A DNA stretch of 64,000 nt from Candidatus Hydrogenedentota bacterium (GTDB taxonomy: Bacteria > Hydrogenedentota > Hydrogenedentia > Hydrogenedentales > JAEUWI01). The position numbers and the translations under genes were made by a program. Shown piece after piece: positions 217-23,298 of this stretch (positions are counted from its first letter, which is position 1; each line of letters starts with the position of its first letter). Where the stretch lies: NCBI GenBank assembly GCA_016791475.1, contig JAEUWI010000001.1, positions 124,001 through 188,000 on the forward strand. The letters run 5' to 3'. The notes under the pieces are model-generated. The model was not told the DNA's origin and made no database searches. It was given only the letters and a program-made list of their open reading frames with translations.

Positions 217-443
217 CGGATTTCTGCCGTTTCCGCGCTGGAAAAGACACCGATTTTAGTGGCGCAATTTCCTATCTTGTGCTACGCTCAATTTGAGAGC
301 AAACGAAGGATTGAGCAATCGTCGGCGGAGCGCAAACGTCGGCAAATCGGACACTGGTTTTCCCCCGACTCAAAGCCCATCACCGGCCGAATGGCGGCCC
401 GCAAGCGGCCGGGAGAACTTGCCCGCGTCCCGGAGTCCAGGCC

Positions 444-824: not shown

Positions 825-888
825 TGCATGGCGGGATCGGGCGTGCTATAGTCATGAGGCCGACATACGTTGCAATGGGAGTATGCTG

Positions 889-3111: not shown

Positions 3112-3140
3112 TAGTGTGAAAGTCTAGGTCAGGGAATTCG

Positions 3141-3338
3141 TTGACACATCTTCGCCCCTTATGTTACCGTGATCACTGGATTTAGCGCAATTGAGGCCGG
3201 GAGGAGACTGATAGGTTTTATCAGTTTCGGTGCTTTGATTGGCTCCGGTGACACCATTGGGGTACAGCATGGAAACAGGGCTTAGGTGCCCGCAGCCCAC
3301 GCCTGACAGCAGGCCGGGAAATGATGGATAAGGATTAT
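3141..3338 (+). promoter_or_regulatory. Candidate leader of the secreted repeat protein gene
   Basis: The 228-base gap holds a TTGACA at 3141-3146, but a matching -10 is weak (TTACCG at 17-base spacing). Just before the start codon GATAA and TTATC (3326-3338) can pair, with GGA of the ribosome binding site in the loop. I see no known riboswitch consensus. This is weak evidence for regulated initiation. Confidence 0.2.
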
Positions 3339-3339
3339 C

Positions 3340-5055: not shown

Positions 5056-5091
5056 CCCCCTGTATCAGACTTCGCGTCGGTTTGTAAGGTT

Positions 5092-5125
5092 CGCCCCCCG
5101 ATCCGAGGATAGGGGGGCGTTCTTA
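5092..5125 (+). terminator. Intrinsic terminator
   Basis: CGCCCCCC at 5092-5099 pairs perfectly with GGGGGGCG at 5112-5119 across a 12-base loop, followed by TTCTTATT. It lies 37 bases after the upstream stop codon and separates that gene from the convergent ABC ATPase gene. Confidence 0.75.
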
Positions 5126-5138
5126 TTGGTCCAGTCGA

Positions 5139-6647: not shown

Positions 6648-6733
6648 GATCTCTCCTGACGGGTTGCTCATTGCCTTGAAGTATAGCGCAGTGTCGGGAA
6701 TGAACCAAAGCGGGGAAGCTTGCCGGGAGCGCC

Positions 6734-6794
6734 GGGCCGTATGGGTCCCGGAGTCATTGAAAGTTAAAAGACCCCTGCTGCGCCCATACGGCCC
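6734..6794. repeat. 12-bp perfect inverted repeat, CGTATGGG type
   Basis: GGGCCGTATGGG at 6734-6745 is matched by CCCATACGGCCC at 6783-6794, and a looser match extends outward on both sides (GGGAGCG and CGCTCCC). The words resemble the 9-bp arrays at 45413 and 53531, but here there is only about one unit per arm. It sits between two leftward genes. Confidence 0.65.
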
Positions 6795-6822
6795 ATCCCG
6801 CTCCCCGCCTGGGAAGGGGGAT

Positions 6823-7332
6823 TCACATTGAAGGGGCTGCGCCGTCCTTTTCACGCAAGCGTTTGAGCTGATGCTTGGCAAAAACCAGGTAAATCAGAAA
6901 GAAGACCCCACCCGCAATCTTCGGAACCAGACCGTCGCGGTCCGACACAATCGGATGGCCTATCGGCAGCCGGGTCAAGGTCTCGGTGAACGTGGGGATC
7001 ATGTGAAACAGGAAGGTAATCGAATAGCCCAGCATTTCCACCTTGCGCGACGCCCCGCCGAAGACCCGTGTCTTGCCTGCGAGCGCGGCGAGCCCCAGGA
7101 CAAGCAGGGTGACGACGCCGAGCATGTGCGCCTCGTTGAAGCCGCCGTGGCGGAAGATGCCGAAGCCGGTCAGGCAGGCCCCGACCGTTGCGGCGACATA
7201 GACCGTTCCCCAGAAACGGCTCGGGTGGATGTCGCCGTGGCGGGTCAATTCGACGATGCCCGCCGCCACGGCGATGAGACTGATGATGGTATGGATGAGC
7301 CCGAAGGGCGAGAGTTGGAGGGTTTCCAGCAT
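6823..7332 (-). CDS. Four-helix integral membrane protein
   Basis: A 169-residue hydrophobic protein with about four or five membrane segments (roughly 12-28, 43-62, 72-88, 103-120, 138-155). Polar residues near the membrane include H14, R31 H32, H36 and H71. The pattern resembles small DUF2306/SirB-like membrane proteins, but I cannot assign a family with confidence. It lies three bases downstream of the haloperoxidase-like gene on the same strand, so the two are probably co-transcribed. Nothing in the sequence shows a catalytic function. Confidence 0.6.
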   Translation of the reverse strand: MLETLQLSPFGLIHTIISLIAVAAGIVELTRHGDIHPSRFWGTVYVAATVGACLTGFGIFRHGGFNEAHMLGVVTLLVLGLAALAGKTRVFGGASRKVEMLGYSITFLFHMIPTFTETLTRLPIGHPIVSDRDGLVPKIAGGVFFLIYLVFAKHQLKRLREKDGAAPSM

Positions 7333-7335
7333 CGG

Positions 7336-8172
7336 TCACGCCTTAATAAAAGCCAGCAGGTCGCCGTTGAAATCGACTTCACCCGTCTGAGCCAGGCCGT
7401 GGGACGCGCCGGTATACACCTTCAGTGTCGCGTTCGGGATCAATTTCGCCGAGAGCAATGCGGAAGCCCCAATGGGCACAATCTGGTCGTCGTCGCCGTG
7501 GGCGATGAGCGTGGGCACGTCAAACTTCTTCAAATCCTCCGTAAAATCGGTCGCGGAGAATGCCGCGATGCAGTCGTAGGCCGGCTTGACGCCCACCTGC
7601 ATACTCCACATCCAGAAGGAATCGCGAATGCCCTGCGAGATCTTCGCCCCGGGCCGATTGTAGCCGTAGAAGGGCGTGGTGAGGTCTTTGTAGAACTGGG
7701 AGCGGTCCGCCAGCACGCCCGCGCGGATGCCGTCAAACACGTCAATCGGCAGACCGCCGGGATTGGCCTCGGTCTGGAGCATGATGGGGGGGACCGCGCC
7801 CAGCAACACGGCCTTGGCCACGCGCCCGGTGCCATGGCGGCCAATGTAGCGCGCCACTTCGCCGCCGCCCGTTGAATGGCCCACGTGGATGGCGTCTTTC
7901 AGGTCGAGGGCCGCCACAAGTTTCGCAAGATCGTCCGCGTAGGTGTTCATCTCGTTGCCCTCCCAGGTCTGGGTGGAGCGACCATGACCCCGACGGTCGT
8001 GGGCGATGACGCGGTAGCCATGATTCGCCAGGAACATCATCTGCTCGTCCCACACATCGGCGTTGAGGGGCCAACCGTGGGAGAAGACGACGGGCTGGCC
8101 GCTGCCCCAGTCCTTGTAGAAGATTTCGACGGGTTTGCCTTTTTCCTGGCCTACGGTGACAGTGCTGGTCAT
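7336..8172 (-). CDS. Alpha/beta hydrolase, non-heme chloroperoxidase / arylesterase type
   Basis: A 278-residue single-domain hydrolase of the cofactor-free haloperoxidase family. The pattern is complete: oxyanion segment [14 protein letters not shown] turn, nucleophile Ser in GHSTGGGE, acid in HGDDDQIVP and His in GASHGLAQT. Length and motifs match arylesterase/perhydrolase members, which act on small esters in the cytoplasm. ATG 8172 is preceded by GAGG about nine bases away; an upstream extension of the frame has no domain and was excluded. It is followed by a membrane protein gene at a three-base gap, which suggests a two-gene unit. The substrate cannot be read from sequence. Confidence 0.88.
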
Positions 8173-8381
8173 GGGGTGGGTCCTCTTCGCGCCCGCAGGC
8201 GCCTGGGTTGGTTTACGACACACGGAAAACCGGGCGGGCGAATAGGACGAGGTGCCAGGCGCTGCTGCACGCCTGAGATGCTGCCGATTATTCGCCGCCT
8301 GTACTACTGAAAACCCCGACGTAGTCAAGTTTAGCGTAAATGGGGGCGTAGGTAAAAGGGAGCGAGCTTGCTAGCGCATCT

Positions 8382-8453
8382 ATAGGACCGATAAGTCCGA
8401 TTGGACCGATTGTAGAAACCAATTCGTCCTATCCGTCGAATCGGTCGTATCCT
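8382..8453. repeat. 9-bp-period array, CGAT[AT]GGAC words, inverted pair
   Basis: A GAC or GTC triplet falls at 8386, 8395 and 8404, then inverted at 8426, 8435 and 8444, exactly nine bases apart in each arm. The intervening bases are variants of CGATAG. The two arms flank a short spacer and are imperfect inverted repeats. The array lies between the 3' end of the lipoprotein gene and the start of the hydrolase gene. Confidence 0.85.
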
Positions 8454-8462
8454 GCCATCGGG

Positions 8463-8951
8463 CTACCGCACCACTTGATTGGACCAGATTGCCCAGTAGA
8501 TGGGCGCGTCGCTGGGTTCCTTCTCGGCGTACTCGTTCACGATGCCGGCCATGCAGAAGTTGTCGATGGGCACATCGAGCGCAAGTCGGTGAAGGTCGCC
8601 CGTGCGGAAGCGGGTGACGTTGCCGCCGATTTCGCCGGAGCGCTCGTCCGCCGCTTCGGCGCGATTCTTGAGTGGATTGTACTGGCCCACGAAGATCGTG
8701 CCGCTGGCCTCGCCCCGGTGGACCTGGACGATTTCATATTTCATCACGTAGGCGTAGTCATAGATGTCGTTCGGCGGGAAGGCGCCGGGAATATCCACCA
8801 GTTTCGCGGTGACCTCGATAGTGCCCATGGCGGTGACCTTCGGGTCGGCGCCGTCGGTGGGGGCAGGCCCGCCGCAACCGGCCAGCAAAAGGAGCAAAGA
8901 TGCAAAGGGCGTAAGGGACAGAAAGGACGTGCTGCGAAGGCGACAGATCAT
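8463..8951 (-). CDS. Predicted lipoprotein of unknown function
   Basis: A 162-residue protein with a lipoprotein signal: a hydrophobic stretch, then lipobox LLAGC with the acylated Cys about residue 26. After a short Gly/Pro/Thr linker the mature part is a compact, strand-rich domain of about 125 residues containing VHRGEASGTIFVGQYNP. I do not recognise the family. Its start overlaps the stop of the TolB-like gene by four bases (8948-8951), so the two are translationally coupled and probably act together in the envelope. Confidence 0.6.
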   Translation of the reverse strand: MICRLRSTSFLSLTPFASLLLLLAGCGGPAPTDGADPKVTAMGTIEVTAKLVDIPGAFPPNDIYDYAYVMKYEIVQVHRGEASGTIFVGQYNPLKNRAEAADERSGEIGGNVTRFRTGDLHRLALDVPIDNFCMAGIVNEYAEKEPSDAPIYWAIWSNQVVR

Positions 8952-11187: not shown

Positions 11188-11853
11188 ATGTTAGCGCGCG
11201 TACAATCGGCAGCCGTGCTCGGCATCGACGCCTTTACCGTGGCGATCGAGGTGGACAACACCGGTGGCCAGCAGAACCAGACTTGGATCGTGGGTCTGCC
11301 CGACGCGGCGGTTAAAGAGAGCGACAGCCGTGTGCGGAGCGCTCTGCGCAATTCAGGGTTCCGCTATCCCAGGGGCTACAACACCATTAACCTCGCACCC
11401 GCCGGAACACGCAAGGAAGGCAGCGCGCTGGATTTGCCCATCGCCCTCGGTCTCCTGGCCGCCAGCGCCCAGATTGGGGGTAACGCCTTCAACGAGTATG
11501 CCTTTGTGGGCGAACTCGCGCTGGACGGCTCCTTGCGACCCGTGGCGGGCGCCCTGGCCATGGCCATCAACGCGCGAAATCAGGGCCTGCGCGGTATCGT
11601 GCTGCCCGCCATGAATGCCGATGAGGCGGGCGTCGTCCAGGGCTGCGAGGTGATTCCCGTGCGCTCGCTGGAGCAGGCCACGGCCTTTCTGGCGGGCGAC
11701 GAAGAAATCCTTCCCCACGTTACCGAGGTGGATGAACTCTTTCACACCGCCCACCTGCGCGTGCCCGACTTGAGCGAAGTAAAGGGCCAGGGCCATGTGA
11801 AGCGCGCGCTCACCGTGGCCGCCGCGGGAGCGCACAATATCTTTATGTTGTAA
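11188..11853 (+). pseudogene. comM: comM (YifB family) 5' fragment, interrupted by integration
   Basis: This frame encodes residues 1-218 of a ComM/YifB Mg-chelatase-like AAA+ ATPase, then three residues and a stop supplied by the inserted element. The N-terminal domain is intact, with VGLPDAAVKES, NLAPAGTRKEG and FVGELALDG as landmarks. It stops at AHNI, just before the Walker A motif. The rest lies at 22423-23298. Joining 11188-11843 to 22422-23298 gives 1,533 bases, 511 codons in frame, close to the 506 residues of E. coli ComM. ComM is a hexameric helicase that aids branch migration during natural transformation in studied species. This fragment lacks all ATPase motifs, so the gene should be inactive until excision. 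Confidence 0.93.
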
Positions 11854-11865
11854 ACGGTTTACCCC
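11842..11865. other. attL: left junction of the integrated element
   Basis: comM sequence ends at ATC (11839-11841). The TT at 11842-11843 is the proposed crossover dinucleotide. A 22-base arm follows at 11844-11865, beginning TATGTTGTAAACGG and ending TTTACCCC. This arm is an inverted repeat of the arm at the right end, with 18 of 22 positions matching. The arm also supplies the TAA that ends the comM fragment. Confidence 0.88.
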
Positions 11866-12085
11866 ATCCACTCCGACCCGTTGGAGCGATGGATATGACC
11901 TACAAGACGCGACACGACAACCCCACAGCCCCACACGCCCAAACCCTGCGCTCACCATTGGGCGGTACCGTGTTTTACGGCCCCTCCCCATACCCACAGA
12001 CCAGCCGTCGCGCAAATCGCGGTGTAGGGCGCCCTAGAGGCTCGGCTCCCGTCAAGGGCTGTGGACCAGTTTGGGGGGCTGTCGC

Positions 12086-12793
12086 ATGATTTGTAAACGC
12101 CGAGACAAACGTAAACGCGCACCAGAGGACCTAGAGCCTGAGCAACCAGAAGCGGACCCAACCGAATATCTGACTAAGGCATCAACCCGACATCGACGCC
12201 AGCCGTTCGATGCCGTGATTCTCTACTACCGCGTATCGACCGGCAATCAACACCGCAATAACAACTACGCTTGGCAGGAGCGGTGTCTTCGGCGATACTG
12301 CAACGACTCTCGAATCGGCATTCTCGATGAGGTCTACGAAGCCGTCAATGGTAATGGTGTGACGGTCGATGCACGACCCGAACTGGCACAAGCCGTCGAC
12401 CTCGCAAAAGCACACTCGGTCCCGATTTTGGCGGCCGCCACGGACCGCTTTCTCCGACCCAAGGGGTTCAACAAGTACGACCAGTCGGCACAGCCCAGCG
12501 TTGCAGACTTCGAGGCACTTGTAGCCTTCGCCCCGGTACCCTTGCTCACGTTCGTCGCACCGGACAGTAAATGGAAGGATGTGAAGTCCCTTCAAAAAGT
12601 CGAGTCGGCCGGATGCAAACATCGGCAAAAACCGATGCGGCGACGCAAGCGCAAGGACATGCTGACTGGCGTGATTCGAGAGCTTGCGCGGTGTGGCCTT
12701 TCGTGTCGAGAGATAGCCGACGAACTCGTGGCCCGAGAGCTGCCAAAGGTCTCGCACAAGACGATATGGGAGTGGCTGAATGAGCCAACGTAA
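12086..12793 (+). CDS. Small serine recombinase (resolvase-like), divergent
   Basis: A 235-residue protein with the catalytic signature of serine recombinases: YYRVSTGNQ at about 47-55 gives Tyr, Arg and nucleophile Ser51, and ATDRFLRP about 129-136 matches the D-R-[LF]-x-R block. The usual central region is altered, with a longer insert between these blocks. The C-terminus (about 195-233) is a probable helix-turn-helix (SCREIADELV then SHKTIWEWL). The N-terminal 40 residues are charged and unlike resolvases. ATG 12086 follows GGGGG; an upstream TTG at 12071 is possible. As the first gene inside the left end it might resolve dimers or assist integration; no target site is recognised. Confidence 0.75.
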   Translation: MICKRRDKRKRAPEDLEPEQPEADPTEYLTKASTRHRRQPFDAVILYYRVSTGNQHRNNNYAWQERCLRRYCNDSRIGILDEVYEAVNGNGVTVDARPELAQAVDLAKAHSVPILAAATDRFLRPKGFNKYDQSAQPSVADFEALVAFAPVPLLTFVAPDSKWKDVKSLQKVESAGCKHRQKPMRRRKRKDMLTGVIRELARCGLSCREIADELVARELPKVSHKTIWEWLNEPT

Positions 12794-12812
12794 TCACTGT
12801 TACTTTTTGTTA

Positions 12813-12834
12813 GCTTACACCCCCATGCGTAAGC
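12813..12834. repeat. GCTTAC/GTAAGC dyad
   Basis: GCTTAC (12813-12818) pairs with GTAAGC (12829-12834) around a ten-base spacer, shortly after the recombinase stop. A related longer dyad with the same TAAGCCC word lies at 15769-15802, so the two bracket the methyltransferase-nuclease module. There is no T tract after it, so it is not a standard terminator. Confidence 0.4.
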
Positions 12835-12966
12835 CCTCGCCACCTGCGAAACATCCGCAAAATCGAGGGGTTCCGCTTTCCTAGAGCCGGAGCCAACAGC
12901 CAGCCATTAACCTAACGCAAATCGCAAAATCGTAACGCACAACGCACAACCACAGGAGTGCACCTT

Positions 12967-13278
12967 ATGTCGACCCCACAATTCACAGACAAAGCCAGAG
13001 CAGCATTTATCCTCCTCCTCGAAGAGTACGCAGCCAATCACGTCGACCCACCCGGCTTTGACGATGGCCAAGAGCAGTGGGACCACTTGAAGGCAGACCC
13101 CGACGCACTCGACCGGCAGATTGCATACATCATGAATGACGTATACGATATAGTCTATACTGAAATCGAGTTAGCCAACGATAAGAGACTCGAACAGGAG
13201 CGAGCCGAACGGGACAGGCTCATATGGGAGCAATACGAAAAGCAGAGAGCGCAGCTTCGCGGCGAGAGTGGTGCGTAG
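12967..13278 (+). CDS. Small acidic/helical protein of unknown function
   Basis: A 103-residue protein that I do not recognise. The first 60 residues are mostly helical and acidic (for example EQWDHLKADPD). The end, about 75-103, is a charged Glu/Arg/Gln-rich helix that could form a coiled coil (KRLEQERAERDRL). ATG 12967 is chosen because AGGAG stands eight bases upstream; a GTG at 12958 overlaps that site. It lies 68 bases before the methyltransferase gene and may be the first gene of the same transcript. A role as controller or inhibitor of the methyltransferase-nuclease pair is possible from position alone. Confidence 0.5.
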   Translation: MSTPQFTDKARAAFILLLEEYAANHVDPPGFDDGQEQWDHLKADPDALDRQIAYIMNDVYDIVYTEIELANDKRLEQERAERDRLIWEQYEKQRAQLRGESGA

Positions 13279-13346
13279 CGTGTTGGCAAGAGACGGAGGG
13301 CGGGCGACCCTTATCATATGTTCGCCTCCGATGAACCGGGATACCC

Positions 13347-14459
13347 ATGGACAAGAAGACGAAGAAGAAGACACTAAACCGCAGTCTGCACGCCGCCAAG
13401 GCTTCGAAGCAGGATGAGTTCTACACCCAGCTTTCCGACATCGAGAAGGAACTCAAGCACTACAAGCATCATTTCAAGGGCAAGACCGTCCTGTGCAACT
13501 GCGATGACCCCAAGGCCAGCAACTTCTTTCACTACTTCTCGCGGAAGTTCGACGACCTCAAGCTCAAGAAGCTAATCACCACCTGCTACCAAAGCCTAGA
13601 CCCCGAGTTATTTAGCAAGAACGACTCCAAGAAAGGGGTCTATTTGGAGTATGAAGGCGAGCGTACGCCCGGTGGCCGCGTCCCCACCCCCGGCCGTATC
13701 GGCATCCATCATTTCAAAGGCGATGGTGACTTCCGCAGCGATGAGTGCATCGAGCTACTGAAGCAAGCAGACATCGTTGTCACGAATCCGCCGTTCTCGC
13801 TGTTTCGAGAGTACGTAACACAGCTAGTCGAGCATAAGAAGAATTTTATTGTCTTGGCGAATCAGAACTCTCTGTCGACCAAGGACGTGTTCGGACTTGT
13901 CCGAGATGACAAGCTCTGGCTGGGTTACAACAATGGCGACATGGCATTCAGAGTCCCTGACCACTACGAGGCAAGAGCGACGCGTTTTTGGGTTGATGAG
14001 AGCGGTAACAAGTGGAGAAGCTTCGGCACCATGTGCTGGCTCACCAATCTTGACATAGCCAAACGACACGAAGATTTGATTCTCTACAAGACTTATGACC
14101 CGGAAGTGTACCCGACATATGACAACTTCGATGCTATCGACGTCAGTAAAGTCGATAGCATTCCAGTCGACTACTTTGGCACGATGGGGGTGCCCGGTGG
14201 GTTTCTCACCAAACATAACCCCGACCAGTTCGAGATTGTTGGGATTACGAAGACGTGGTGCGGCATGGCTTCGAAGAAGTATCCAAAGCAGATTCAGGTT
14301 GATGCTGACGGCACCAAAAGTGAGGTAACTAAGTTGAACGACGGTGCGGCGCTCAAATGGCCAACCCGCCCGACTGGTAAGACATACTACATCGTCGACG
14401 GGGAATACTTTACCCAGACTTATCCACGCCTTCTAATTCGGCGCAAGGAGCATCAATGA
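13347..14459 (+). CDS. Adenine-specific DNA methyltransferase, EcoRI family
   Basis: A 370-residue protein matching the EcoRI-type N6-adenine methyltransferases. Landmarks are DEFYTQ at 23-28, VLCNCDDPKASNF at about 48-60 (the cofactor-side motif typical of this family) and the catalytic NPPF at 147-150. The family includes M.EcoRI and many phage and mobile-element solitary enzymes, and would methylate adenine in a specific DNA site using S-adenosylmethionine. The N-terminus is Lys-rich (MDKKTKKK). It overlaps the following DUF262-HNH gene by four bases (ATGA), so the two are made together. No EcoRI-like restriction enzyme is present. Whether it protects against the neighbouring nuclease or marks DNA for it cannot be told from sequence. 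Confidence 0.9.
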   Translation: MDKKTKKKTLNRSLHAAKASKQDEFYTQLSDIEKELKHYKHHFKGKTVLCNCDDPKASNFFHYFSRKFDDLKLKKLITTCYQSLDPELFSKNDSKKGVYLEYEGERTPGGRVPTPGRIGIHHFKGDGDFRSDECIELLKQADIVVTNPPFSLFREYVTQLVEHKKNFIVLANQNSLSTKDVFGLVRDDKLWLGYNNGDMAFRVPDHYEARATRFWVDESGNKWRSFGTMCWLTNLDIAKRHEDLILYKTYDPEVYPTYDNFDAIDVSKVDSIPVDYFGTMGVPGGFLTKHNPDQFEIVGITKTWCGMASKKYPKQIQVDADGTKSEVTKLNDGAALKWPTRPTGKTYYIVDGEYFTQTYPRLLIRRKEHQ

Positions 14460-15550
14460 AGATCGAACTCCACAAAATCACGGTCGCCGAACTTTGCGAC
14501 GGCTTTATAGATACCGACGAAGAAGGCGTGAGGGCTTTTGGAGGCAAGCTCGATATTCGACCGCCATATCAGCGAGAGTTCATCTACAAGGACAAGCAGC
14601 GCAACGCCGTGATAGACACTGCGCAGAAAGACTTCCCGCTGAACGTGATGTATTGGGCGGTTCGGGAGGACGGCAACTATGAAGTCATCGACGGGCAGCA
14701 GCGCACCCTGTCAATCTGCCAGTACGTCAACGGGGACTACTCCGTCGATCGCCTGTATTTTGGCAATCTGAAAAAGGACCAACGGCAACAGCTTCTCGAT
14801 TACGTCTGCATGATTTACTTCTGCTCCGGCACCGACAGTGAAAAGCTAGAATGGTTCAAGACGATTAACATTGCCGGTGAGGAACTCACCGACCAGGAAC
14901 TCAGGAACGCGGTCTATGCCGGGCCATGGACCACCGATGCCAAACGCTATTTCAGCAAGACAGGCTGTGCGGCATATGGCCTCGCCGGAGAATACCTAAA
15001 TGGCGCGCCAATTCGACAGGAATACCTTGAGACAGCAATCGAGTGGCATGCCCAATTAAAGGGGTTGGCATCAATCGAGGAATACATGGGGCAGCACCAA
15101 CACGACGAGAACGCTACGCCGCTTTGGCAGTACTTCCAGCGAGTGATAGGGTGGGTGAAAGCCACATTTCCAAAGTACCGCAAAGAGATGAAGGGCGTGC
15201 AGTGGGGTCCGCTCTATAACCAGTTTAAGGACGCCACGCTTGACACAGACAAACTGGAGAAGCGGGTCGCGGAATTGATGGAGGATATTGATGTCACGCG
15301 CAAACCAGGAATTTATCAGTATGTGTTGAATGGTAATGAAAAGCACCTGAACGTCCGTGCGTTCACCCCACAAATGAAGCGGGAAGCCTACGAGCGCCAG
15401 AAGGGTATCTGCCCTGTATTCAAGAAGCACTTCGAGCTTGAGGAAATGGAAGCTGACCACATCACACCATGGCACGAGGGCGGGAAGACTACCGCGGAGA
15501 ATTGCCAGATGCTGTGCAAAGAAGCCAACAGAAGGAAGTCAGGGAAATAG
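14456..15550 (+). CDS. DUF262-HNH nuclease, coupled to the methyltransferase
   Basis: A 364-residue protein in two parts. Residues about 5-230 form a DUF262 domain, shown by IRPPYQREF at 34-42 and IDGQQR at 78-83. In GmrS, SspE and BrxU-type proteins this domain binds and hydrolyses nucleotide and senses DNA modification. Residues about 314-364 are an HNH endonuclease motif with DH at 334-335 and Asn349 and Asn358. The zinc ribbon is degraded: the expected Cys partners of C319 and C354 are F322 and A357. ATG 14456 overlaps the methyltransferase stop. A methyltransferase-linked restriction or modification-sensing defence role is inferred from the domains and coupling. Loss of zinc ligands might weaken or alter cleavage. 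Confidence 0.85.
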   Translation: MKIELHKITVAELCDGFIDTDEEGVRAFGGKLDIRPPYQREFIYKDKQRNAVIDTAQKDFPLNVMYWAVREDGNYEVIDGQQRTLSICQYVNGDYSVDRLYFGNLKKDQRQQLLDYVCMIYFCSGTDSEKLEWFKTINIAGEELTDQELRNAVYAGPWTTDAKRYFSKTGCAAYGLAGEYLNGAPIRQEYLETAIEWHAQLKGLASIEEYMGQHQHDENATPLWQYFQRVIGWVKATFPKYRKEMKGVQWGPLYNQFKDATLDTDKLEKRVAELMEDIDVTRKPGIYQYVLNGNEKHLNVRAFTPQMKREAYERQKGICPVFKKHFELEEMEADHITPWHEGGKTTAENCQMLCKEANRRKSGK

Positions 15551-15730
15551 AGGGCACCTGACCAACGCCTCCATACGCCACGCCACGCCCCGCCGACTGC
15601 CTACCAAAGCGAGCCTGATTTGCAGGAAATGATTACCACCCCGCCATCGCCCCCACTCACGACCACGACGATACGCCCGCCCCACAGCCCCGTCCTGTAA
15701 AGACCCAATCCGGACCCAATCCAACACCCC

Positions 15731-15757
15731 AGCCCCTTGGAAACATGGGGCTTTTTT
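15731..15757 (+). terminator. Intrinsic terminator after the methyltransferase-nuclease pair
   Basis: AGCCCC (15731-15736) pairs with GGGGCT (15747-15752) across a ten-base loop, and the T tract runs 15752-15757. The 331-base gap 15551-15881 otherwise holds a dyad at 15769 and no supported gene. Confidence 0.8.
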
Positions 15758-15768
15758 CATGCGCCCAA

Positions 15769-15802
15769 GTGTAAGCCCCCGTTTGTAATTCGGGCTTTAC
15801 AC
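15769..15802. repeat. GTGTAAGCCC...GGGCTTTACAC dyad
   Basis: GTGTAAGCCC (15769-15778) faces GGGCTTTACAC (15792-15802) with one extra base in the right arm. It stands 80 bases upstream of the Lys/Ala/Pro-tailed DNA-binding protein gene and could be its operator or a recombinase site. The same word occurs at 12829-12836. Confidence 0.5.
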
Positions 15803-15881
15803 CATCGACTGTGAGACTGTAGCATTGTGTGTACTAGGTTACTGATACACCAAACACCTACTCAACACAGGAGACCAGACA

Positions 15882-16226
15882 ATGAGCACCAAGACCGAGA
15901 AGAAGACGACCGAGAAGAAGACCACTACTGAGAAGCCCGCAGCGAAAGCCGCCACGAAGCCCGCAGCGACGCCCGAAGTAAAAGCCCCCACGAAGCCCGA
16001 AGCGAAGAAGCCCGCGAAGCCCAAGGCCGAACGGGACCGCTTTGGCTCACGCCCCACAACGGAGAGCGGCCAAATCAACGCTGCGATGACCACCAAGCCC
16101 CAAACGATTGAGGCCATCGCCAGCGCGACCAAGCTGAGCACGAGCCGAGTACGCAATCACATGAAGTGGCTCATGGACCGGGAGCACGTGACCAAGACCG
16201 AAGAAGGCTACAAGGTAGCCAAGTGA
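15882..16226 (+). CDS. Lys/Ala/Pro-tailed winged-helix-like DNA-binding protein
   Basis: A 114-residue protein. Residues 1-48 are low-complexity Lys, Thr, Ala, Pro and Glu with repeated 'KPAAK/KAPTKPEA' style units, like histone-H1-type nucleoid tails. Residues about 60-114 look like a small winged helix-turn-helix: TIEAIASATKLSTSRVRNHM then a wing near TKTEEGYKV. ATG 15882 has AGGAG (15868-15872) nine bases upstream. Such proteins coat or condense DNA or repress transcription. Within a mobile element it could regulate the element's genes or organise its DNA for packaging; both are inference. Confidence 0.65.
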   Translation: MSTKTEKKTTEKKTTTEKPAAKAATKPAATPEVKAPTKPEAKKPAKPKAERDRFGSRPTTESGQINAAMTTKPQTIEAIASATKLSTSRVRNHMKWLMDREHVTKTEEGYKVAK

Positions 16227-16331
16227 CGCCTCTGTGGGGCGACTTTGGCTACAGACCGTGTTGTGTGTAGGAGAGGAGCCCTAAAACTTGACAGCGACCA
16301 ATGGTGAGGCTACCAGCCCCAACCAAACGCG

Positions 16332-16357
16332 ACGCCCTACGGGATACCGTGGGGCGT
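16332..16357. other. 11-bp hairpin with GATA loop
   Basis: ACGCCCTACGG (16332-16342) and CCGTGGGGCGT (16347-16357) pair with one T-G wobble around GATA. It lies in the 156-base gap before the 58-residue gene. There is no T tract, so it is either a weak terminator or a structured leader. Confidence 0.55.
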
Positions 16358-16382
16358 TGGTCGTAGATAGGGAGAAAATCAA

Positions 16383-16559
16383 ATGCTCGAACAAAAACAG
16401 TGCCCAGCGTTCTTAATCGAATACGACCGCCGAGGGCAACGGGTCCTCAAAGAGTTTGACGACTATTACATCGGTCGCCGGTTCTACATTGCGAAGTGGA
16501 ATGCAGGTCGAAACCCCAAGGTCGTGAACCCCGCCAAGCGGGAGAAGGAGCAATCGTGA
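16383..16559 (+). CDS. 58-residue basic protein coupled to the second recombinase
   Basis: A short gene from ATG 16383, with AGGGAG about eight bases upstream, to TGA 16557-16559. The product starts MLEQKQCPAF, has an aromatic and acidic centre (EFDDYYIGRRFYIAKW) and a basic end. The stop shares one base with the recombinase ATG (TGATG), so translation is coupled. The family is not recognised. Small basic proteins beside recombinases are sometimes directionality factors or accessory proteins, and this is a candidate on position only. Confidence 0.6.
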   Translation: MLEQKQCPAFLIEYDRRGQRVLKEFDDYYIGRRFYIAKWNAGRNPKVVNPAKREKEQS

Positions 16560-17161
16560 TGCCCAAGCACATCGCCATCTACCTCAGAGTATCAAGCCGA
16601 CAGCAGGATACGAAGAGCCAGAAGCCCGACCTCGAACGATGGGCGGAAGCCCAGGACGAGCCAATCAAATGGTACGAAGACACCGCCACCGGAAAGAACA
16701 TGAACCGGCCCGGATGGAAGCAACTCGAAGACGCGATGCGAACCGGCAAGGTATCAGCCATCGTGGTATGGCGGTTGGACCGGTTGGGGCGGACAGTGAG
16801 CGGTTTGTCTACCCTGTTCGATGAACTCACCGAACGCAAAATCAATCTTGTCACCATCATGGATGGTATCAATCTCTCAACCGCAGCCGGACGAATGATG
16901 GCGAACGTTATCGCCAGCGTCGCACAGTACGAAACGGAGATGCGGGGGGAACGTGTGGCCGCAGGCCAAGCGGTGGCGAAAGCCAAGGGGGTGCGATGGG
17001 GAGGATGGACAGAGAAGCACAAGGCCAAAGTATCCCAACGAAAGGCCGACCTCATCATCAAGATGAAGAAGGACAAGGTCCCCATCGCCGAAATAGCTCG
17101 CGAGTTGGGGCTATCACGCCCCACCATCTACAAGGTGCTCGAACAGAAGCAAGAAGTGTAA
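16559..17161 (+). CDS. Serine recombinase, resolvase/invertase family
   Basis: A 200-residue, complete small serine recombinase. The catalytic domain has IYLRVSSRQQ (Tyr8, Arg10, Ser12), VVWRLDRLGR at about 76-85 and the E-helix region ending in AQYETEMRGERV. The C-terminus is a helix-turn-helix of the Hin/Tn3 resolvase type (IAELARELGLSRPTIYKVL-like, about 176-194). Length and order match DNA invertases and resolvases. The start is ATG 16559, overlapping the stop of the 58-residue gene; an upstream in-frame Met at 16496 lies inside that gene. I found no convincing pair of inverted sites that would make it a switch. Confidence 0.92.
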   Translation: MPKHIAIYLRVSSRQQDTKSQKPDLERWAEAQDEPIKWYEDTATGKNMNRPGWKQLEDAMRTGKVSAIVVWRLDRLGRTVSGLSTLFDELTERKINLVTIMDGINLSTAAGRMMANVIASVAQYETEMRGERVAAGQAVAKAKGVRWGGWTEKHKAKVSQRKADLIIKMKKDKVPIAEIARELGLSRPTIYKVLEQKQEV

Positions 17162-17239
17162 ACAATCTCTCTTGTGAATCATTTTTGACGATGCTATAAG
17201 TACACGCATTACAGCAGCGATAGCTAGTAAGGTGTGACA

Positions 17240-17623
17240 ATGACACAGCGACCATCAACACGAGAAGAGCGGAGGGCGAAGACCCCCGCAACGCTCCCGG
17301 AGCGATTTGAACCGAGGTTCTGGGAGACGACCGACCAGCGACAGGGGGTGGTGAAGGAGATACGCCGACGGCTCGAAGCACTGCGAGACGATGCAGGCGT
17401 GGACCGCGTCCAAAAGGAGATGCTGGTACGTCGGGCAATCTTTATCAGTATCCAACTCGAAACGATGGAAGTGCAGAGCGTCGAAGGCGGGGAGTTTCAG
17501 GCAGGCGTATACACGCAGATGACGAATGCCCTGTCGGGGCTTCTCAGTAAGCTCGGCTTGGAGCAGCAGACAACCAAGAAGGTGGTCAACCTCCATGAGT
17601 ACGTGAACGGGGGTGACAAGTGA
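17240..17623 (+). CDS. Probable small terminase subunit (TerS-like)
   Basis: A 127-residue, largely helical, basic protein placed directly before TerL, the usual position of the small terminase subunit. Residues about 30-110 fit a helical bundle (VVKEIRRRLEAL then VQKEMLVRRAIFISIQLETME and ALSGLLSKLGLEQQ). Proteins of similar size and pattern precede TerL in many tailed phages and normally recognise the packaging site. The N-terminal 30 residues are basic. ATG 17240 has AAGG seven bases upstream; the GTG at 17234 is less likely. Its stop TGA lies within the GTG start of TerL (GTGA). The name rests mostly on position. Confidence 0.55.
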   Translation: MTQRPSTREERRAKTPATLPERFEPRFWETTDQRQGVVKEIRRRLEALRDDAGVDRVQKEMLVRRAIFISIQLETMEVQSVEGGEFQAGVYTQMTNALSGLLSKLGLEQQTTKKVVNLHEYVNGGDK

Positions 17624-19023
17624 ACATCATCGAGGCAATCAAAGACGAGAACCTGTTTCGACCCTTTTTGGGCGAGGACCTCGAATCGTGGAAGCCGTGG
17701 TTGACCGCCTTACGAGCGATGTATGGATTGCCAATCAAGGCGAGCCAGAGCAAGCGCCTAGTCCGCCAGTGTACCGGACGTGATGTATCAACGATGCCCC
17801 AAGACGGTTTCGATACCGCCTTGTTCTTAACGGGCCGACGCAGCGGCAAGAGCCGCATCGCAGCGGTAATCGGGGCATACGAAGCCGCCATCGCCGGGCA
17901 CGAAAAGAAGCTCGCCAAAGGCGAACGCGGGATTGTGCCCATCATCGCCCCAACGAAGTCACAGGCACGTATCGTAACCAACTACCTCAAGGGCGTGTTC
18001 GCAACACCAATGCTTGCCCGCGAGGTGGAGAGCGAAACCCGAGAAGGGTTTGAGCTTCGCAACGGCACGATGATTGAAATACTCGCGGGCGACTGGCGGA
18101 CCATCCGGGGCTATACCTTGCTGGCGGCAATCGTTGACGAGGCGTGCTTTTTCGGTATCAGCGAGGAGAGCCGCATCCGAAGCGATACGGAACTGGTCCG
18201 GGCAATCGCTCCATCGCTTGCCACAGTAGGCGGGAAGCTGATAGCCATCTCGTCTCCGTATGCCCGCAAGGGATGGGCTCATAACCAATACAAGATGCAC
18301 CACGGCAACGACACTGGCGAAACGCTAGTGTGGAACTGCCCAAGCCGAACAATGAATTCCACCTTGCCCCAACGAATCGTTGACCGGGCACTCGCGGAGG
18401 ACCTGGCATCCGCCAAGAGCGAGTACCTGGGCGAATGGCGCGACGACGTGGCTTCGTTTATCCCACGGCAGGTGATTGAGGAACTTGTGGTGCCGGGCCG
18501 GGACCGCCTCAGCCACAACCACGAGAATAGATACTTCGCCTTCGTTGATATGTCGGGTGGTCGAAGCGATGACGCTGCCCTAGCGATAGCTCACAAGGAA
18601 GGTCGAACCGTTGTCATTGACCTCGCGAAGCGCTGGGCGCCGCCCTTCAATCCGCACCACGTTATTTCGGCGATGGCTGAAGAACTCAAGGCATACGGCC
18701 TTCGACGGGTCATAGGTGACAACTACGCAGCCGAGTTCACCGCCAGCGCCTTCGTTGAGAACGGCATCCGATATCGCAAGAGCGACAAGAACAAAAACAT
18801 CATCTACGCGGAGTTGTTGCCCCGGCTCTGCTCAGGTGACATCGAACTACTTGACGACGAGCGATTGGTATCCCAACTCGCATCACTTGAACGACGAACC
18901 CGCAGTGGAGGCCGAGACGTTATCGACCACCCGCCCGGGGGACACGATGACCTTGCAAACGCAGTTGCGGGTGTGGCGGTGGTCGCCGCAGCCGGATACC
19001 GAGTGGCCGGCGCACTCCAATAA
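17620..19023 (+). CDS. Phage terminase large subunit (TerL)
   Basis: A 467-residue protein with both terminase activities. The packaging ATPase has Walker A TGRRSGKSR at 71-79, Walker B AAIVDEACFF with D173-E174, and the coupling motif ISSPYARKG about 210-218. The nuclease domain has RNase-H-like acids at FVDMSGG (D310), VIGDNYA and HDDLANAVAG near the C-terminus. All key residues appear intact, so this does not look like a decayed gene. TerL pumps DNA into a prohead through the portal and cuts it. Translation starts at GTG 17620, overlapping the upstream stop. No portal gene follows, which is unusual, since terminase and portal genes are nearly always neighbours. Confidence 0.92.
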   Translation: MNIIEAIKDENLFRPFLGEDLESWKPWLTALRAMYGLPIKASQSKRLVRQCTGRDVSTMPQDGFDTALFLTGRRSGKSRIAAVIGAYEAAIAGHEKKLAKGERGIVPIIAPTKSQARIVTNYLKGVFATPMLAREVESETREGFELRNGTMIEILAGDWRTIRGYTLLAAIVDEACFFGISEESRIRSDTELVRAIAPSLATVGGKLIAISSPYARKGWAHNQYKMHHGNDTGETLVWNCPSRTMNSTLPQRIVDRALAEDLASAKSEYLGEWRDDVASFIPRQVIEELVVPGRDRLSHNHENRYFAFVDMSGGRSDDAALAIAHKEGRTVVIDLAKRWAPPFNPHHVISAMAEELKAYGLRRVIGDNYAAEFTASAFVENGIRYRKSDKNKNIIYAELLPRLCSGDIELLDDERLVSQLASLERRTRSGGRDVIDHPPGGHDDLANAVAGVAVVAAAGYRVAGALQ

Positions 19024-19043
19024 CCCAACGAAAGGAAAACATA

Positions 19044-19541
19044 ATGAACCCCACGCAAGCGATAAATGAGTTTGACGCCCGACACGGAGGAACAAGCGTC
19101 GCCGTGCAGTCAACCAACGGTAACTGGCTGTTGTATCCCGACGGTGCCCGCCGCGAGACGAACCCATACGGGAGGCTCATAAGCCCGCCATCAGCCGAGA
19201 TGTTGCAGTTGTATCCGTATAACGGCAACCAAGACCGGCTCGACCTCGACGCTATTGAGCGCCGGATTGACTACTGGGATGCCAAGGTCCACCACCTCGT
19301 TAAGGCCCACGAACAGCTCCGCAATTCGATGATGGGCAATGACTACTCCGATGACCAACTGAAAGAACTTGAGCGGCTCTCGGATGCCGTGAAAGTTGCC
19401 CGGCAGGCGTTGGACGAACTCAAGGACGAACGGTCTGAGAATCCGGCTGTGAAGGAATTTGAAGCCCGGAAGGAAGTCGAGGCCGAGCGTCAACAGCGTA
19501 TCAAAGATAAGGCCGCAGCACTCAACAAAATGAAGGTATGA
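19044..19541 (+). CDS. Coiled-coil protein in the packaging module, unknown
   Basis: A 165-residue protein at the place where a portal gene would be expected, but far too short to be one. The first 50 residues contain aromatic and Gly/Pro-rich sequence (NGNWLLYPDGARRET). Residues about 65-165 are continuous charged helix with a coiled-coil pattern (DLDAIERRIDYWDAKVHHLV, later VKEFEARKEVEAERQ). The length and helical nature would suit a scaffold, a head-completion adaptor or a DNA-binding accessory. It lies 20 bases after TerL and its stop overlaps the next gene's ATG (ATGA). No family is recognised. Confidence 0.6.
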   Translation: MNPTQAINEFDARHGGTSVAVQSTNGNWLLYPDGARRETNPYGRLISPPSAEMLQLYPYNGNQDRLDLDAIERRIDYWDAKVHHLVKAHEQLRNSMMGNDYSDDQLKELERLSDAVKVARQALDELKDERSENPAVKEFEARKEVEAERQQRIKDKAAALNKMKV

Positions 19542-20335
19542 CTATGAACACGTATGTATCCAACCACACCAACCTGTCCTTGAAGAAAGCTGGTGTTCGG
19601 GCCAGCTTCGGCGTTCAAACCAACGCACGCACCGCACCTCTCGAAGGCCGAACCCATTATGTCCTGCCGGTCACGATGCTCGTGGTTGGGGTGCATAACG
19701 GGAGCCAAGGCCCCATCACCTACACCGCCGACGAACTGCGGGCATCAGCCAAACTATGGAACGGGAGGCCCGTTGTGGTCTATCACCCGCAACTGAACGG
19801 ACAGGGCGTAAGTGCCGCTGACCCGGACATCACCAGCCGCCAGCGGATTGGGACCGTCTTCAACACCCAGTTCGACGGACACCGACTGAAAGCCGAAGCG
19901 TGGATTGATGCAGAACGTGTCGGACAGGTCGATGAACGGGTAGCCGATGCCATCCGCCTCAATCAGAAGATGGAGGTAAGCACGGGCCTCTACTTTGCCC
20001 TCGATGGTGAGATTGCCCGAAACCACCAACCCGACCACCTCGCCATCCTGCCCGACCTGATTGGGGCGTGCAGTGTGGCGGACGGATGCGGATTATTTCA
20101 AACCAACCAAGAGGAAGTCACAATGAACCAGCACGATGAAGATGTATTGCCAATGCCCACGATGGGCTATGCCCACGAAATGGTACCGACCGTCAACAAC
20201 GGCGGAGGTGACCGGGACGACAACTTGCTGCCGCTGCCCGCGATGAACTATCAAAGCCCCTGCGATTGCAGCCCGGTAGCGAACGCCGACGATGATATCT
20301 TACACTTGCCCAGCATGGATGGGCACGTTGCCTAA
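19538..20335 (+). CDS. DUF2213-like phage prohead protease/scaffold protein
   Basis: A 265-residue protein whose residues about 40-190 resemble DUF2213, a family found in phage head-assembly modules and thought to act as prohead maturation protease. Typical blocks are TADELRASAKLWNGRPVVV, then MEVSTGLYF and PDHLAILPDLIGACSVADGCG. The C-terminal 70 residues differ: three acidic copies of a D-[ED]-[DN]-[VLI]-L-[PH]-[ML]-P-x-M motif, at DEDVLPMPTM, DDNLLPLPAM and DDDILHLPSM. An internal start at 20123 could make this tail separately. ATG 19538 overlaps the upstream stop; ATG 19544 is an alternative. With no capsid gene here, its substrate would have to come from a helper phage. Confidence 0.7.
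   Translation: MTMNTYVSNHTNLSLKKAGVRASFGVQTNARTAPLEGRTHYVLPVTMLVVGVHNGSQGPITYTADELRASAKLWNGRPVVVYHPQLNGQGVSAADPDITSRQRIGTVFNTQFDGHRLKAEAWIDAERVGQVDERVADAIRLNQKMEVSTGLYFALDGEIARNHQPDHLAILPDLIGACSVADGCGLFQTNQEEVTMNQHDEDVLPMPTMGYAHEMVPTVNNGGGDRDDNLLPLPAMNYQSPCDCSPVANADDDILHLPSMDGHVA
20123..20335 (+). CDS. Possible nested scaffold-like product (internal start)
   Basis: GAGGAAG at 20111-20117 lies five bases before an in-frame ATG at 20123, a better ribosome site than that of the full gene. Translation here would give 70 residues, exactly the acidic tail with the three LPxPxM-type repeats. In lambda and other phages the scaffold is made from an internal start in the protease gene, so the arrangement is plausible. 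No protein evidence exists in the sequence. Confidence 0.4.
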   Translation: MNQHDEDVLPMPTMGYAHEMVPTVNNGGGDRDDNLLPLPAMNYQSPCDCSPVANADDDILHLPSMDGHVA

Positions 20336-20345
20336 TCCTTTCGTG

Positions 20346-20409
20346 GAGGGCGACCCGGCGCGGATTGATCCCCGCGCCGTGTGGCTAGCCGACCGGCCCG
20401 GTCGCCCTC
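20346..20409. other. Branched inverted-repeat structure before the integrase
   Basis: GAGGGCGACC (20346-20355) pairs perfectly with GGTCGCCCTC (20400-20409). Inside, CGGCGCGG (20356-20363) pairs with CCGCGCCG (20372-20379), and GGCTAGCC (20383-20390) is a palindrome. Together they can form a three-way junction occupying most of the 110-base gap between the DUF2213-like gene and the integrase. It may be a terminator, a packaging or replication site, or an integrase regulatory structure. Confidence 0.65.
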
Positions 20410-20445
20410 TCCTTTACACCACGGTTGGCAGAAAGAAGGTCGGCT

Positions 20446-22398
20446 ATGACAATGAAAGTACCACGAGGACGACCCAAACCGAGGGTCTACTCATACATCC
20501 GCTTCTCAACCCCAGAGCAAGAGAAGGGAGACTCCCTGCGTCGGCAGAGAGAGTGGCGAGACAACTACGTCAACGCGAATGGCTATCACCTCGACACGAG
20601 TTTCAAGCTTCTCGACAAAGGTCGTAGTGCGTTCAAGGGGGAGCACCTTCGCGGCAAGGGGACACTCGGAATATTTCTCGACGCGGTGAAAAGTGGCATG
20701 GTGCCGTCGGGGAGCATCTTGCTCGTTGAGAGCATCGACCGGCTAACACGACTGGAGCCAATAGAGGCTATCGAGATGGTCTGCTTTGGACTGCTAAAGC
20801 ATGGCATCACGGTAAAGACGACTGTTGCCGAGTACCCGCCCGATGCGGTGAATGATGGTCGAATACATGGCTTGATTGCTGAGATACAACGGGCATATCA
20901 GGAATCCAAACGCAAGAGCGAGTTGATTGGTGCGGCCCGAGAGACGGCCCGCCAGAAGGCTCGTGACGAGAAGAAGATTATCACAGCCCAATGCCCCGCA
21001 TGGCTCACGAAAGAGGGTGACAAGTTCGTAGTAATCCCCGAGGCGGAGGAAGCAATACGCCGCCTCTTTGACCTCAAGCTCAAGGGGCTATCAACGCGCG
21101 CCATAGAGCGCAAGCTAAACGAAGAAGGGACTTGGACGGCACCGCCGAGGGAGAATCAGATAACGACGGGTTGGCGTGCCAGCTATATCACGAAGATAGT
21201 CCGCAACCGAGCGGTAATCGGTGAGTACCAACCATTCAAAAAAGTGAACGGCAAGCGGGAACCGAAAGGCGAAGCCATCAAAGGGTACTACCCGATTGTG
21301 GTTGAGCCGCCGTGCTTCTTTGCCGTACAGGAGATACTATCCCGCAATCAGGGCACTGGCGGACGGGCGGACCAGTTCAGCAATATTTTCAAGAGCATGA
21401 TGATTTGTAAGTATTGCGGTGGCCCAATGAGTTTTGACAACAAGGGCGAACGTACCAAGGGGGGCCTCCGGTTCGTTTGCTACAACGGGCAACGGAACGC
21501 CGGGTGTCGCCACCCGAGCCCTTACGCGATTCGATTCGATGACATCGCGGACTGTGTACTGGACAACTGCCCGAAGCTGAAACCGGAACAGGTATTGCCC
21601 GAACCGGATGAGCAGGCGAAGCGATGCCAAGCACTCACCGAGCATATCCAAGGGTTGAATGCTCAGCTTACGGATATCGAACGGAAGCAGAAGAACCTCC
21701 TTAAATCGATTGCGAAAGAGGACCGTGATGCCCTCCGAAAGGCCCTAGCTGATGAATGGGACTCCATGCAGCAACAGCACGCTGACATTGAACACGCCAT
21801 CGCCGAGCGCGAAAGCGAACTACAGCAAGCCGAACGTGACACCAAATCATTTGCGACTTGGCAACGCGACCTCAAACAGTTGCGAGAGAGCATCGAAGGC
21901 CGAGACCAAACGGCCATCGAAATGCGTATGCGGCTCAACGCCCATCTGCGGGAACTGATAAAGAGCATCGAAGTGTTCGCCGAGGGGTACGCGAAAGGCA
22001 CAGAGAAGACGGACGACAACACGCTGCCCAAGCGGGGGCGGACGGTGAAGGATAACGGACGGCTCCGATACATCCCGGCACCGATACCGACCGAGGATGA
22101 CTTCTACGACGCGATGATGGCTCAAGCCGACGATGACCTGTGGCGCGACAAGATGTTCAGGGGCTTCATTAAACAAATCGCCGAACAGCGACGGACCAAG
22201 AAGGGTCGGTTTGTACGCGTTCACTTCACGACCGGGGCTGTGGTAGACTTAGTTCCAGAGGGTAGCTTGGCATCCGGAGTGCAGATGACGAAGGATGCCA
22301 GACGCCAAGCCGGTTGGCGTTTTGTGAACCCGAAGCTTGACCGAATGTGGCGAGACTGGAAGACAGAATACAACAAGAAGGCGGCGAAGAAGCGGTAG
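20446..22398 (+). CDS. Large serine integrase
   Basis: A 650-residue large serine recombinase. The catalytic domain has YSYIRFSTPEQ (nucleophile Ser21), then ESIDRLTRLEP about 95-105. The recombinase domain follows (GLSTRAIERKLNEEGTW and WRASYITKIVRNRAVIGEY, about 215-261). A zinc ribbon uses C321, C324, C345 and C354. A long coiled coil (about 385-465) precedes the C-terminus. This order matches phage and ICE integrases that recombine attP with attB at a two-base core. The gene ends one base into the right attachment arm, the usual place for an integrase. ATG 20446 follows AAGAAGG at seven bases; TTG 20425 is less likely. Confidence 0.95.
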   Translation: MTMKVPRGRPKPRVYSYIRFSTPEQEKGDSLRRQREWRDNYVNANGYHLDTSFKLLDKGRSAFKGEHLRGKGTLGIFLDAVKSGMVPSGSILLVESIDRLTRLEPIEAIEMVCFGLLKHGITVKTTVAEYPPDAVNDGRIHGLIAEIQRAYQESKRKSELIGAARETARQKARDEKKIITAQCPAWLTKEGDKFVVIPEAEEAIRRLFDLKLKGLSTRAIERKLNEEGTWTAPPRENQITTGWRASYITKIVRNRAVIGEYQPFKKVNGKREPKGEAIKGYYPIVVEPPCFFAVQEILSRNQGTGGRADQFSNIFKSMMICKYCGGPMSFDNKGERTKGGLRFVCYNGQRNAGCRHPSPYAIRFDDIADCVLDNCPKLKPEQVLPEPDEQAKRCQALTEHIQGLNAQLTDIERKQKNLLKSIAKEDRDALRKALADEWDSMQQQHADIEHAIAERESELQQAERDTKSFATWQRDLKQLRESIEGRDQTAIEMRMRLNAHLRELIKSIEVFAEGYAKGTEKTDDNTLPKRGRTVKDNGRLRYIPAPIPTEDDFYDAMMAQADDDLWRDKMFRGFIKQIAEQRRTKKGRFVRVHFTTGAVVDLVPEGSLASGVQMTKDARRQAGWRFVNPKLDRMWRDWKTEYNKKAAKKR

Positions 22399-22421
22399 GG
22401 GTAAACTGTACTCAACATATT
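22398..22421. other. attR: right junction of the integrated element
   Basis: A 22-base arm at 22398-22419, starting GGGGTAAACTG and ending CTCAACATA, is followed by the TT core at 22420-22421, then comM sequence GATGGTCGGC. The first base of the arm is the last base of the integrase stop codon. Reverse-complemented, it matches the left arm at 18 of 22 positions. Confidence 0.88.
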
Positions 22422-22422
22422 G

Positions 22423-23298
22423 ATGGTCGGCCCGCCCGGCACCGGCAAGACCATGCTGGCCTCCCGCATTCCCGGCATCCTCCCGCCCATGAGCTTCGAC
22501 GAGTCCCTGGAGACCACGCGGGTCTACAGCGTGTGCCCCGTGGAGACAAGGAAGGAATCGCTCATCGTCACGAGGCCCTTCCGGAGTCCCCACCACACCT
22601 CCACCACGGTTTCCATTGCGGGCGGCGGCCAGCATGCCCACCCCGGCGAGGTGAGTCTGGCGCACAACGGCGTGCTCTTTCTCGATGAGCTGCCCGAGTT
22701 CAATCGCGCCGCGCTGGAGGTGTTGCGCCAGCCCCTCGAAGAGGGACTCGTCCACATCCGCCGCGCGAACTATTCCGTAACCTATCCGAGCCGCTTCATG
22801 CTGGTGGTGGCGATGAACCCCTGCCCCTGCGGTTGCCGCACCGACCCGCGCAGGCAGTGCCGCTGCAGCACGAACGACGTGCAGCGCTACATCGGAAGGC
22901 TCTCGGGACCGTTGCTCGATCGCATCGATATCCATGTGGACGTACCCGCGCTAAGCTTCGACGATCTGACCGACAGCCGGATCAGCGGACCCACGACGGA
23001 GGAAGTGCGAGCGCAGGTCCTCGCCGCCCGCGAGCGCCAGCGCGCCCGGTGCAACGGCACAACGCGCTACAACGCCCACCTCGACAGCAAGACCCTGCGC
23101 CACTATTGCAAGCTCAACGATGCGAGCAAGACCCTCCTGGAGCGGGCCCTCAATGCCCTCGGCCTGAGCGCCCGCGCCTACGATAAAATCCTCCGCATCG
23201 CCCGCACCCTCGCGGACCTGGAAGACAAGGACGACATTACAGAACACCACGTTGCGGAGGCCGTGCAATACCGGAGCCTGGACAAGTCGGTGCTATAG
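22423..23298 (+). pseudogene. comM: comM (YifB family) 3' fragment
   Basis: This frame holds the rest of comM: Walker A GPPGTGKT right at the start, the Mg-chelatase core with FLDELPEF (Walker B) and MVVAMNPCPCG, the RCSTNDVQRYIGRLSGPLLDRIDIHV block, and the C-terminal helical domain. The TTG codon for Leu219 is rebuilt from the TT core and the following G. An ATG stands at 22423, but no good ribosome binding site precedes it, so separate expression is doubtful. No frameshift or stop is visible, so the split appears recent or selectively maintained, and clean excision would restore the gene. Confidence 0.93.

Follow-up and report, generated by a model that had tools for sequence, protein, structure and literature searches.

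A terminase pair and a prohead protease within an interrupted comM gene

The 64,000-nucleotide stretch of a Candidatus Hydrogenedentota genome analysed here (the window; contig JAEUWI010000001.1, positions 124,001–188,000) carries an integrated element of 10,572 bp at 11851–22422, whose packaging genes are the subject of this report. Coordinates refer to the window unless another locus is given, and all window genes named here lie on its forward (+) strand. The element interrupts comM, a yifB-like Mg-chelatase/AAA gene, and its limits were set by reconstruction of the empty site and by composition. Joining position 11850 to 22423 links the 5′ part of comM (11188–11850) to its 3′ part (22423–23298) and restores an open frame of 513 amino acids (aa); the attL and attR cores, both TTG, lie at 11848–11850 and 22420–22422. 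The GC content of the element is 55.8%, compared with 61–62% in the flanks, a difference of about 5–6 points. A large serine recombinase (20425–22398; PF00239, PF07508 and PF13408), the stop codon of which lies 24 bp from the right end, is the likely integrase. Mobile elements are known to insert into comM; cells that lose the gene are transformed less and may also remove such elements less readily (PMC11472951).

The large terminase subunit TerL (467 aa, 17620–19023) matches phrog_2 (1.2e-28) and profiles of TerL/gp17 chains from the PDB. In an alignment of 20 homologues, its Walker A motif GRRSGKS, the Walker-B glutamate and the aspartates of the RNaseH-type nuclease are conserved. The 129-aa protein encoded just upstream (17234–17623) is probably the small subunit TerS, as members of its family immediately precede TerL in about 15 loci. 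No Pfam or PHROG match was obtained for it, so that no library names it, and its structural model matched P27-type small terminases weakly and below significance. TerL is followed by a 165-aa open reading frame (ORF; 19044–19541), for which relatives were not found and whose second half is charged and, judged by eye, probably coiled-coil, and then by a prohead protease gene (19538–20335). Overlaps of 4 bases join TerS to TerL and the 165-aa ORF to the protease.

Portal, capsid and tail genes, by which a tailed prophage would be recognised, were not found in the element by Pfam and PHROG scans and comparison with capsid and portal proteins; nor was a replication gene. The original prediction, which had described TerS-like, TerL and DUF2213-like genes in a 10.6-kb element lacking these four functions, with intact TerL catalytic residues and overlapping start and stop codons, is borne out on each of these points save the family name of the protease, discussed below. 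The element thus has the general anatomy of a satellite, namely a complete integrative element with packaging genes and no full particle set.

The protease carries three scaffold tail peptides in place of a scaffold

The 265-aa protease belongs to the phrog_760/DUF2213 type (phrog_760, E 4e-18) and is 41% identical to a protein of Brevundimonas phage StAshley (7e-26) and 31% identical to Salmonella and Escherichia proteins annotated as prohead protease or coat protein. The family profile also matches Pa193 gp24 (E 6e-4), and over 291 genomes it matched only the window copy. The best fold match of the structural model is the T4 gp21 prohead protease (5jbl, probability 1.00), with herpesvirus assemblins also matched; residues 30–190 have pLDDT values mostly above 90, and H83, S148 and D166-H167 are invariant in 40 sequences. 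The protein is therefore predicted to have the gp21/assemblin-type fold with its conserved histidine and serine. The label DUF2213-like holds as far as the phrog_760 type and this fold are concerned, but the Pfam family itself gave no match at E<1.

The phage relatives of the protease are protease–scaffold fusions. Downstream of the homologue, phages including StAshley, ST1UNAM, ES18 and Pocitis76 encode a decoration or small protein and then the capsid protein. All 74 usable full-length homologues measure 397–847 aa (one reading of 6 aa was discarded as an extraction error), against 265 aa in the window, where the long scaffold domain that follows the protease in such fusions is absent. What remains is a tail of 70–80 aa, modelled with low confidence and probably disordered. 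Phage homologues often end in a peptide resembling EEPLPMPTMNF, and in 17 of 72 homologues a strict form of this motif falls within the C-terminal 40 aa, where it is about ten-fold more frequent than in the gene bodies. The window protein contains it three times (shuffle p 0.00025): copy 1, DEDVLPMPTMGY, at 20135–20170; copy 2, DDNLLPLPAMNY, at 20216–20251; and copy 3, DDDILHLPSMDG, at 20288–20323, which is C-terminal, as in the phage homologues. Pairwise DNA identity among the copies is only 50–67%, indicating that the repeats are old rather than freshly duplicated and that the peptide has been kept. As we read the sequence, the tail peptide of phage scaffolds, in three copies, has taken the place of the scaffold part of the protease. 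The original prediction had recognised a head-maturation protein, correctly as regards the protease, but had missed this replacement, which we judge to be the more telling feature.

A predicted nested gene (20123–20335) opens with an internal in-frame ATG, which follows GAGGA (20111–20115) by seven bases and lies 11 codons past DGCG, the motif at the end of the protease domain. Its 70-aa product, a mini-scaffold, would comprise little beyond the three tail motifs. Nested genes of this kind have precedents in lambda C/Nu3 and herpesvirus UL26/UL26.5, in which a scaffold start lies within the protease gene. Among IMG/VR homologues of the protease (L145–L224), a Shine–Dalgarno sequence with an in-frame start is concentrated 3–20 codons past DGxG (34 of 136 bins, compared with 69 of 1224 elsewhere; Fisher p 1e-11, computed without regard to sequence relatedness), so translation of the scaffold from an internal start of the protease gene appears to be a general trait of these phages. 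The window apparently keeps the same arrangement, with a miniature predicted product.

Small complete relatives share the terminase type

Profile scans recovered about 60 loci with a TerL 33–43% identical to that of the window. Alignments were required for this, as a single-sequence TerL scan of viral_contigs gave zero matches; a DNA search of plasmids likewise gave none. Because many short contigs could be fragments of phages, only relatives bounded by att repeats or circular were counted as complete. Numerous short IMG/VR contigs with the window-type TerL (for example L019, L024 and L032) have portal or connector genes and are perhaps such fragments. A further contig of 8.65 kb, perhaps incomplete, encodes a protease-like protein (L014:388–1473; phrog_617, 8e-11) together with TerL and an integrase, and no capsid or portal.

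Six relatives are complete. Exact repeats of tRNA 3′ ends flank three of them: L006 (46 bp; 15.4 kb, in a Ca. Aminicenantes chromosome), L013 (46 bp; 51–8481, 8.4 kb, in tRNA-Arg) and L025 (49 bp; 14.1 kb). The others, L018 (9,338 bp), L109 (9,705 bp) and L027 (7,747 bp), are circular by terminal overlap. L027 encodes an integrase, an excisionase, a probable replication protein, TerS and TerL, with no recognised structural gene, and L018 and L109 an integrase, an O-like replication protein, TerS, TerL, a neck-type protein and a tape measure protein. L013 has TerS, TerL and an HK97-type capsid protein, with no portal or protease. L006 encodes a protein of tail-assembly type (phrog_2115) and a second, large one that matches no library and looks tape-measure-like by eye. 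L025 encodes an 847-aa head-type protein (phrog_684), to which no role was assigned and owing to which this relative was not counted as a clear portal-less case. None of the complete relatives has a full head–tail set, and what they hold of one differs between them (nothing, a capsid protein alone, or tail genes alone). Overall, a capsid gene was recognised in L013 alone, as a major capsid protein by itself, and a portal in none of the six, using a narrow comparison set of 19 reference capsid and portal proteins supplemented by PHROG scans.

L018 and L109, recovered from different metagenomes, are identical in gene content. Ratios of nonsynonymous to synonymous substitution (dN/dS) between them are 0.08 for TerL, 0.11 for TerS, the tape measure protein and the integrase, and 0.12–0.26 for the other genes (dS 0.09–0.56), from which we conclude that the reduced gene set is being kept. 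With their own terminase, a neck-type protein and a tape measure, and no capsid or portal found, these two elements are the reverse of capsid-forming phage-inducible chromosomal islands (cfPICIs).

In the TerL tree the window groups with a TerL from the same host order (97/96), and five changes of state are needed to accommodate it and the six complete relatives; small elements therefore arose several times, or phages re-arose. The original prediction had named close relatives with full head and tail genes as the mark of a deletion remnant. Phages with head genes and the window-type TerL do exist (L021 and L110), but they are about 40% identical and interleaved with the complete small elements.

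Putative cargo, a possible regulator and additional recombinases

The left half of the element encodes an EcoRI-type adenine methyltransferase (13347–14459; PF13651, 4.7e-128) and a GmrSD_N (DUF262) protein with an HNH endonuclease domain (14456–15550; PF03235, 2e-18; PF01844, 1.5e-9). The two genes overlap by 4 bp and form a possible restriction-like cargo pair (13347–15550). Two resolvase-type proteins are present beyond the integrase: a 240-aa protein with a partial resolvase N-terminal catalytic domain and a helix-turn-helix (12071–12793; PF00239, 1.8e-7), and a small serine recombinase of the resolvase/invertase type (16559–17161; PF00239, 3.7e-38; PF02796, 1.7e-8), whose ATG at 16559 is preceded by a Shine–Dalgarno sequence in a frame open from 16496. 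A small winged-helix-like protein (15882–16226), with weak ArsR/TrmB-type matches, is a possible regulator; beyond it, neither a primase or replication module nor an AlpA/Stl-type regulator, both traits of phage-inducible chromosomal islands (PICIs), was matched in the element. A 106-aa ORF lies at 12958–13278, and for this and the 114-aa and 165-aa ORFs relatives were absent among the fetched loci.

The integrase has three matches (C3, C4 and C13), all large serine recombinases at 31% identity in one distant genome (G090). With matches so few and so distant, no sister element in comM was found.

A probable satellite with its own packaging motor

Taken together, we consider it fairly probable that the element is a phage satellite equipped with a terminase and a mini-scaffold of its own and dependent on the shell, portal and tail of a helper. 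We favour this reading because the insertion is exact with intact flanks, the TerL residues are intact, the overlapping genes are coupled and the relatives are complete. The large serine recombinase would integrate the element at comM and excise it, as the anatomy of the insertion suggests, and TerS and TerL, as a coupled pair, would cut and package the element's own DNA. The protease gene would yield both a prohead protease and, from the nested start, the 70-aa mini-scaffold with its three tail peptides. By analogy with CpmB of SaPI1, these two proteins could bind the helper capsid protein and compete with the full scaffold, so that helper proheads would be shifted to a small size suited to 10.6 kb and then matured. 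The absence of the corresponding genes suggests that shell, portal, neck and tail would come from the helper phage, and the methylase–HNH pair would be defence-type cargo.

The analogy draws on SaPI1, whose 72-aa CpmB has the C-terminal RIIK motif also present in the 80alpha scaffold. CpmB binds to the capsid protein in almost the way that this scaffold does and competes with the scaffold, so that small capsids result (PMC5644958). The predicted 70-aa product resembles SaPI1 CpmA/CpmB in being a small protein with a phage scaffold C-terminal motif. However, SaPIs use the helper TerL and bring TerS at most, whereas the window element encodes TerL and a protease; moreover, the window motif occurs in three copies nested inside the protease gene. 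P4 Sid is likewise a satellite-encoded scaffold acting on helper shells (PMC10690885), but of a different kind, and P4 is packaged by the P2 terminase. Pa193 gp24, StAshley, ES18 gp7 and Pocitis76 have a homologous protease domain, and many IMG/VR homologues share the nested scaffold start; these fusions differ in their length (397–847 aa), long scaffold, and decoration and capsid genes downstream. In Pa193, residues 286–326 of gp24, a putative scaffold, bind the five-fold vertex (PMC11042391).

Among satellites, classical PICIs carry TerS at most. cfPICIs resemble the element in their integrated satellite scale, their own TerS and TerL and their own head protease, but encode a major capsid protein, portal and connectors, none of which was found here (PMC10690885). 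The satellites MulchRoom and MiniFlayer also have their own terminase pair, but encode portal and capsid (PMC10690885). Rctr16k (KX853514, L012; 16.7 kb) shares the order TerL, 197-aa ORF, head protease and has no annotated capsid or portal; it differs in a very distant TerL, a protease of another family and tail genes including a tape measure, and its record is labelled partial. A satellite that has TerL and lacks a capsid was not described in the literature searched; the primary reports on VEIMEs, cfPICIs and tycheposons lay outside its scope, and earlier accounts of TerL-only satellites are possible there.

Several observations weigh against the satellite reading. The 129-aa protein is assigned as TerS by synteny and position alone, and the element lacks a recognisable replication gene. 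The strict tail motif is present in a minority of homologues (17 of 72), and its binding to capsid protein is putative; in Pa193 gp24 the contact with the capsid that has been resolved is made by a pair of helices in the middle of the protein and not by the tail (PMC11042391). PF04860 and PF05065 gave zero matches across the 7.7-Mb metagenome-assembled genome (96% complete), so a helper of those types is not visible there. The dN/dS values were taken on L018 and L109, not on the window copy. Finally, among relatives selected by TerL, a mixture of leftover phage genes is also expected from scattered decay; the argument against decay is one of completeness and selection, not of gene mix.

Under decay, which we regard as unlikely, the element would be a deletion remnant: what is left of a prophage, complete at one time, after loss of its portal, capsid and tail genes, and not selected as a unit. 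The head-gene phages L021 and L110 share the TerL type, the five state changes fit repeated losses, random leftovers beside TerL are expected from a TerL-based search, and the window protease is shorter than all its phage homologues. On the other hand, the frames are unbroken, the 4-bp overlaps coupled, the att sites exact and the recombinase intact; att repeats or circularity show relatives of the same size to be complete, and in two of them an identical reduced gene set is under purifying selection. Nor are three diverged tail-peptide copies with a nested start a product of deletion. The original prediction had offered a satellite or a prophage reduced by deletion: the bounded or circular relatives without capsid and portal sets, two of them under purifying selection, favour a satellite with its own motor, whereas packaging, helper use and the redirection of proheads are steps that we infer.

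An interference island, in which protease and mini-scaffold would poison the assembly of invading phages alongside the methylase and HNH protein as defence, with particle transfer secondary or absent, seems to us improbable. The restriction-type cargo would suit such a role and multivalent tail peptides could jam capsid assembly, but a TerS–TerL pair is superfluous for pure defence, and the relatives retain TerS–TerL and the integrase but not the window-type protease. Very improbable, in our view, is a capsid-forming element whose capsid and portal have diverged beyond recognition, with the 165-aa ORF or others being structural. That ORF, lacking relatives, does sit between TerL and the protease; however, no leftover ORF is of portal size, the unassigned ones measuring 106, 114 and 165 aa, and a major capsid protein usually exceeds 250 aa.

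Beyond the satellite reading of this one element, we tentatively suggest, as a possibility on which we remain divided, a class of satellites built on one TerS–TerL lineage in distant bacteria. Its members would combine the motor with a single variant assembly piece (a mini protease–scaffold, a lone capsid protein or headless tail genes) and take the rest from a helper, the window version being a nested 70-aa, three-headed scaffold mimic. Known satellites borrow the helper TerL or bring a whole head; a motor with a shrunken scaffold–protease and no shell would, if true, amount to a third strategy. Scaffold mimicry is known from SaPI1 CpmB, and the three-headed tail peptide points to another path to it that uses different sequences. 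Through the nested scaffold start of the phage relatives, the logic of lambda C/Nu3 and herpesvirus UL26/UL26.5 would apply to these phages as well.

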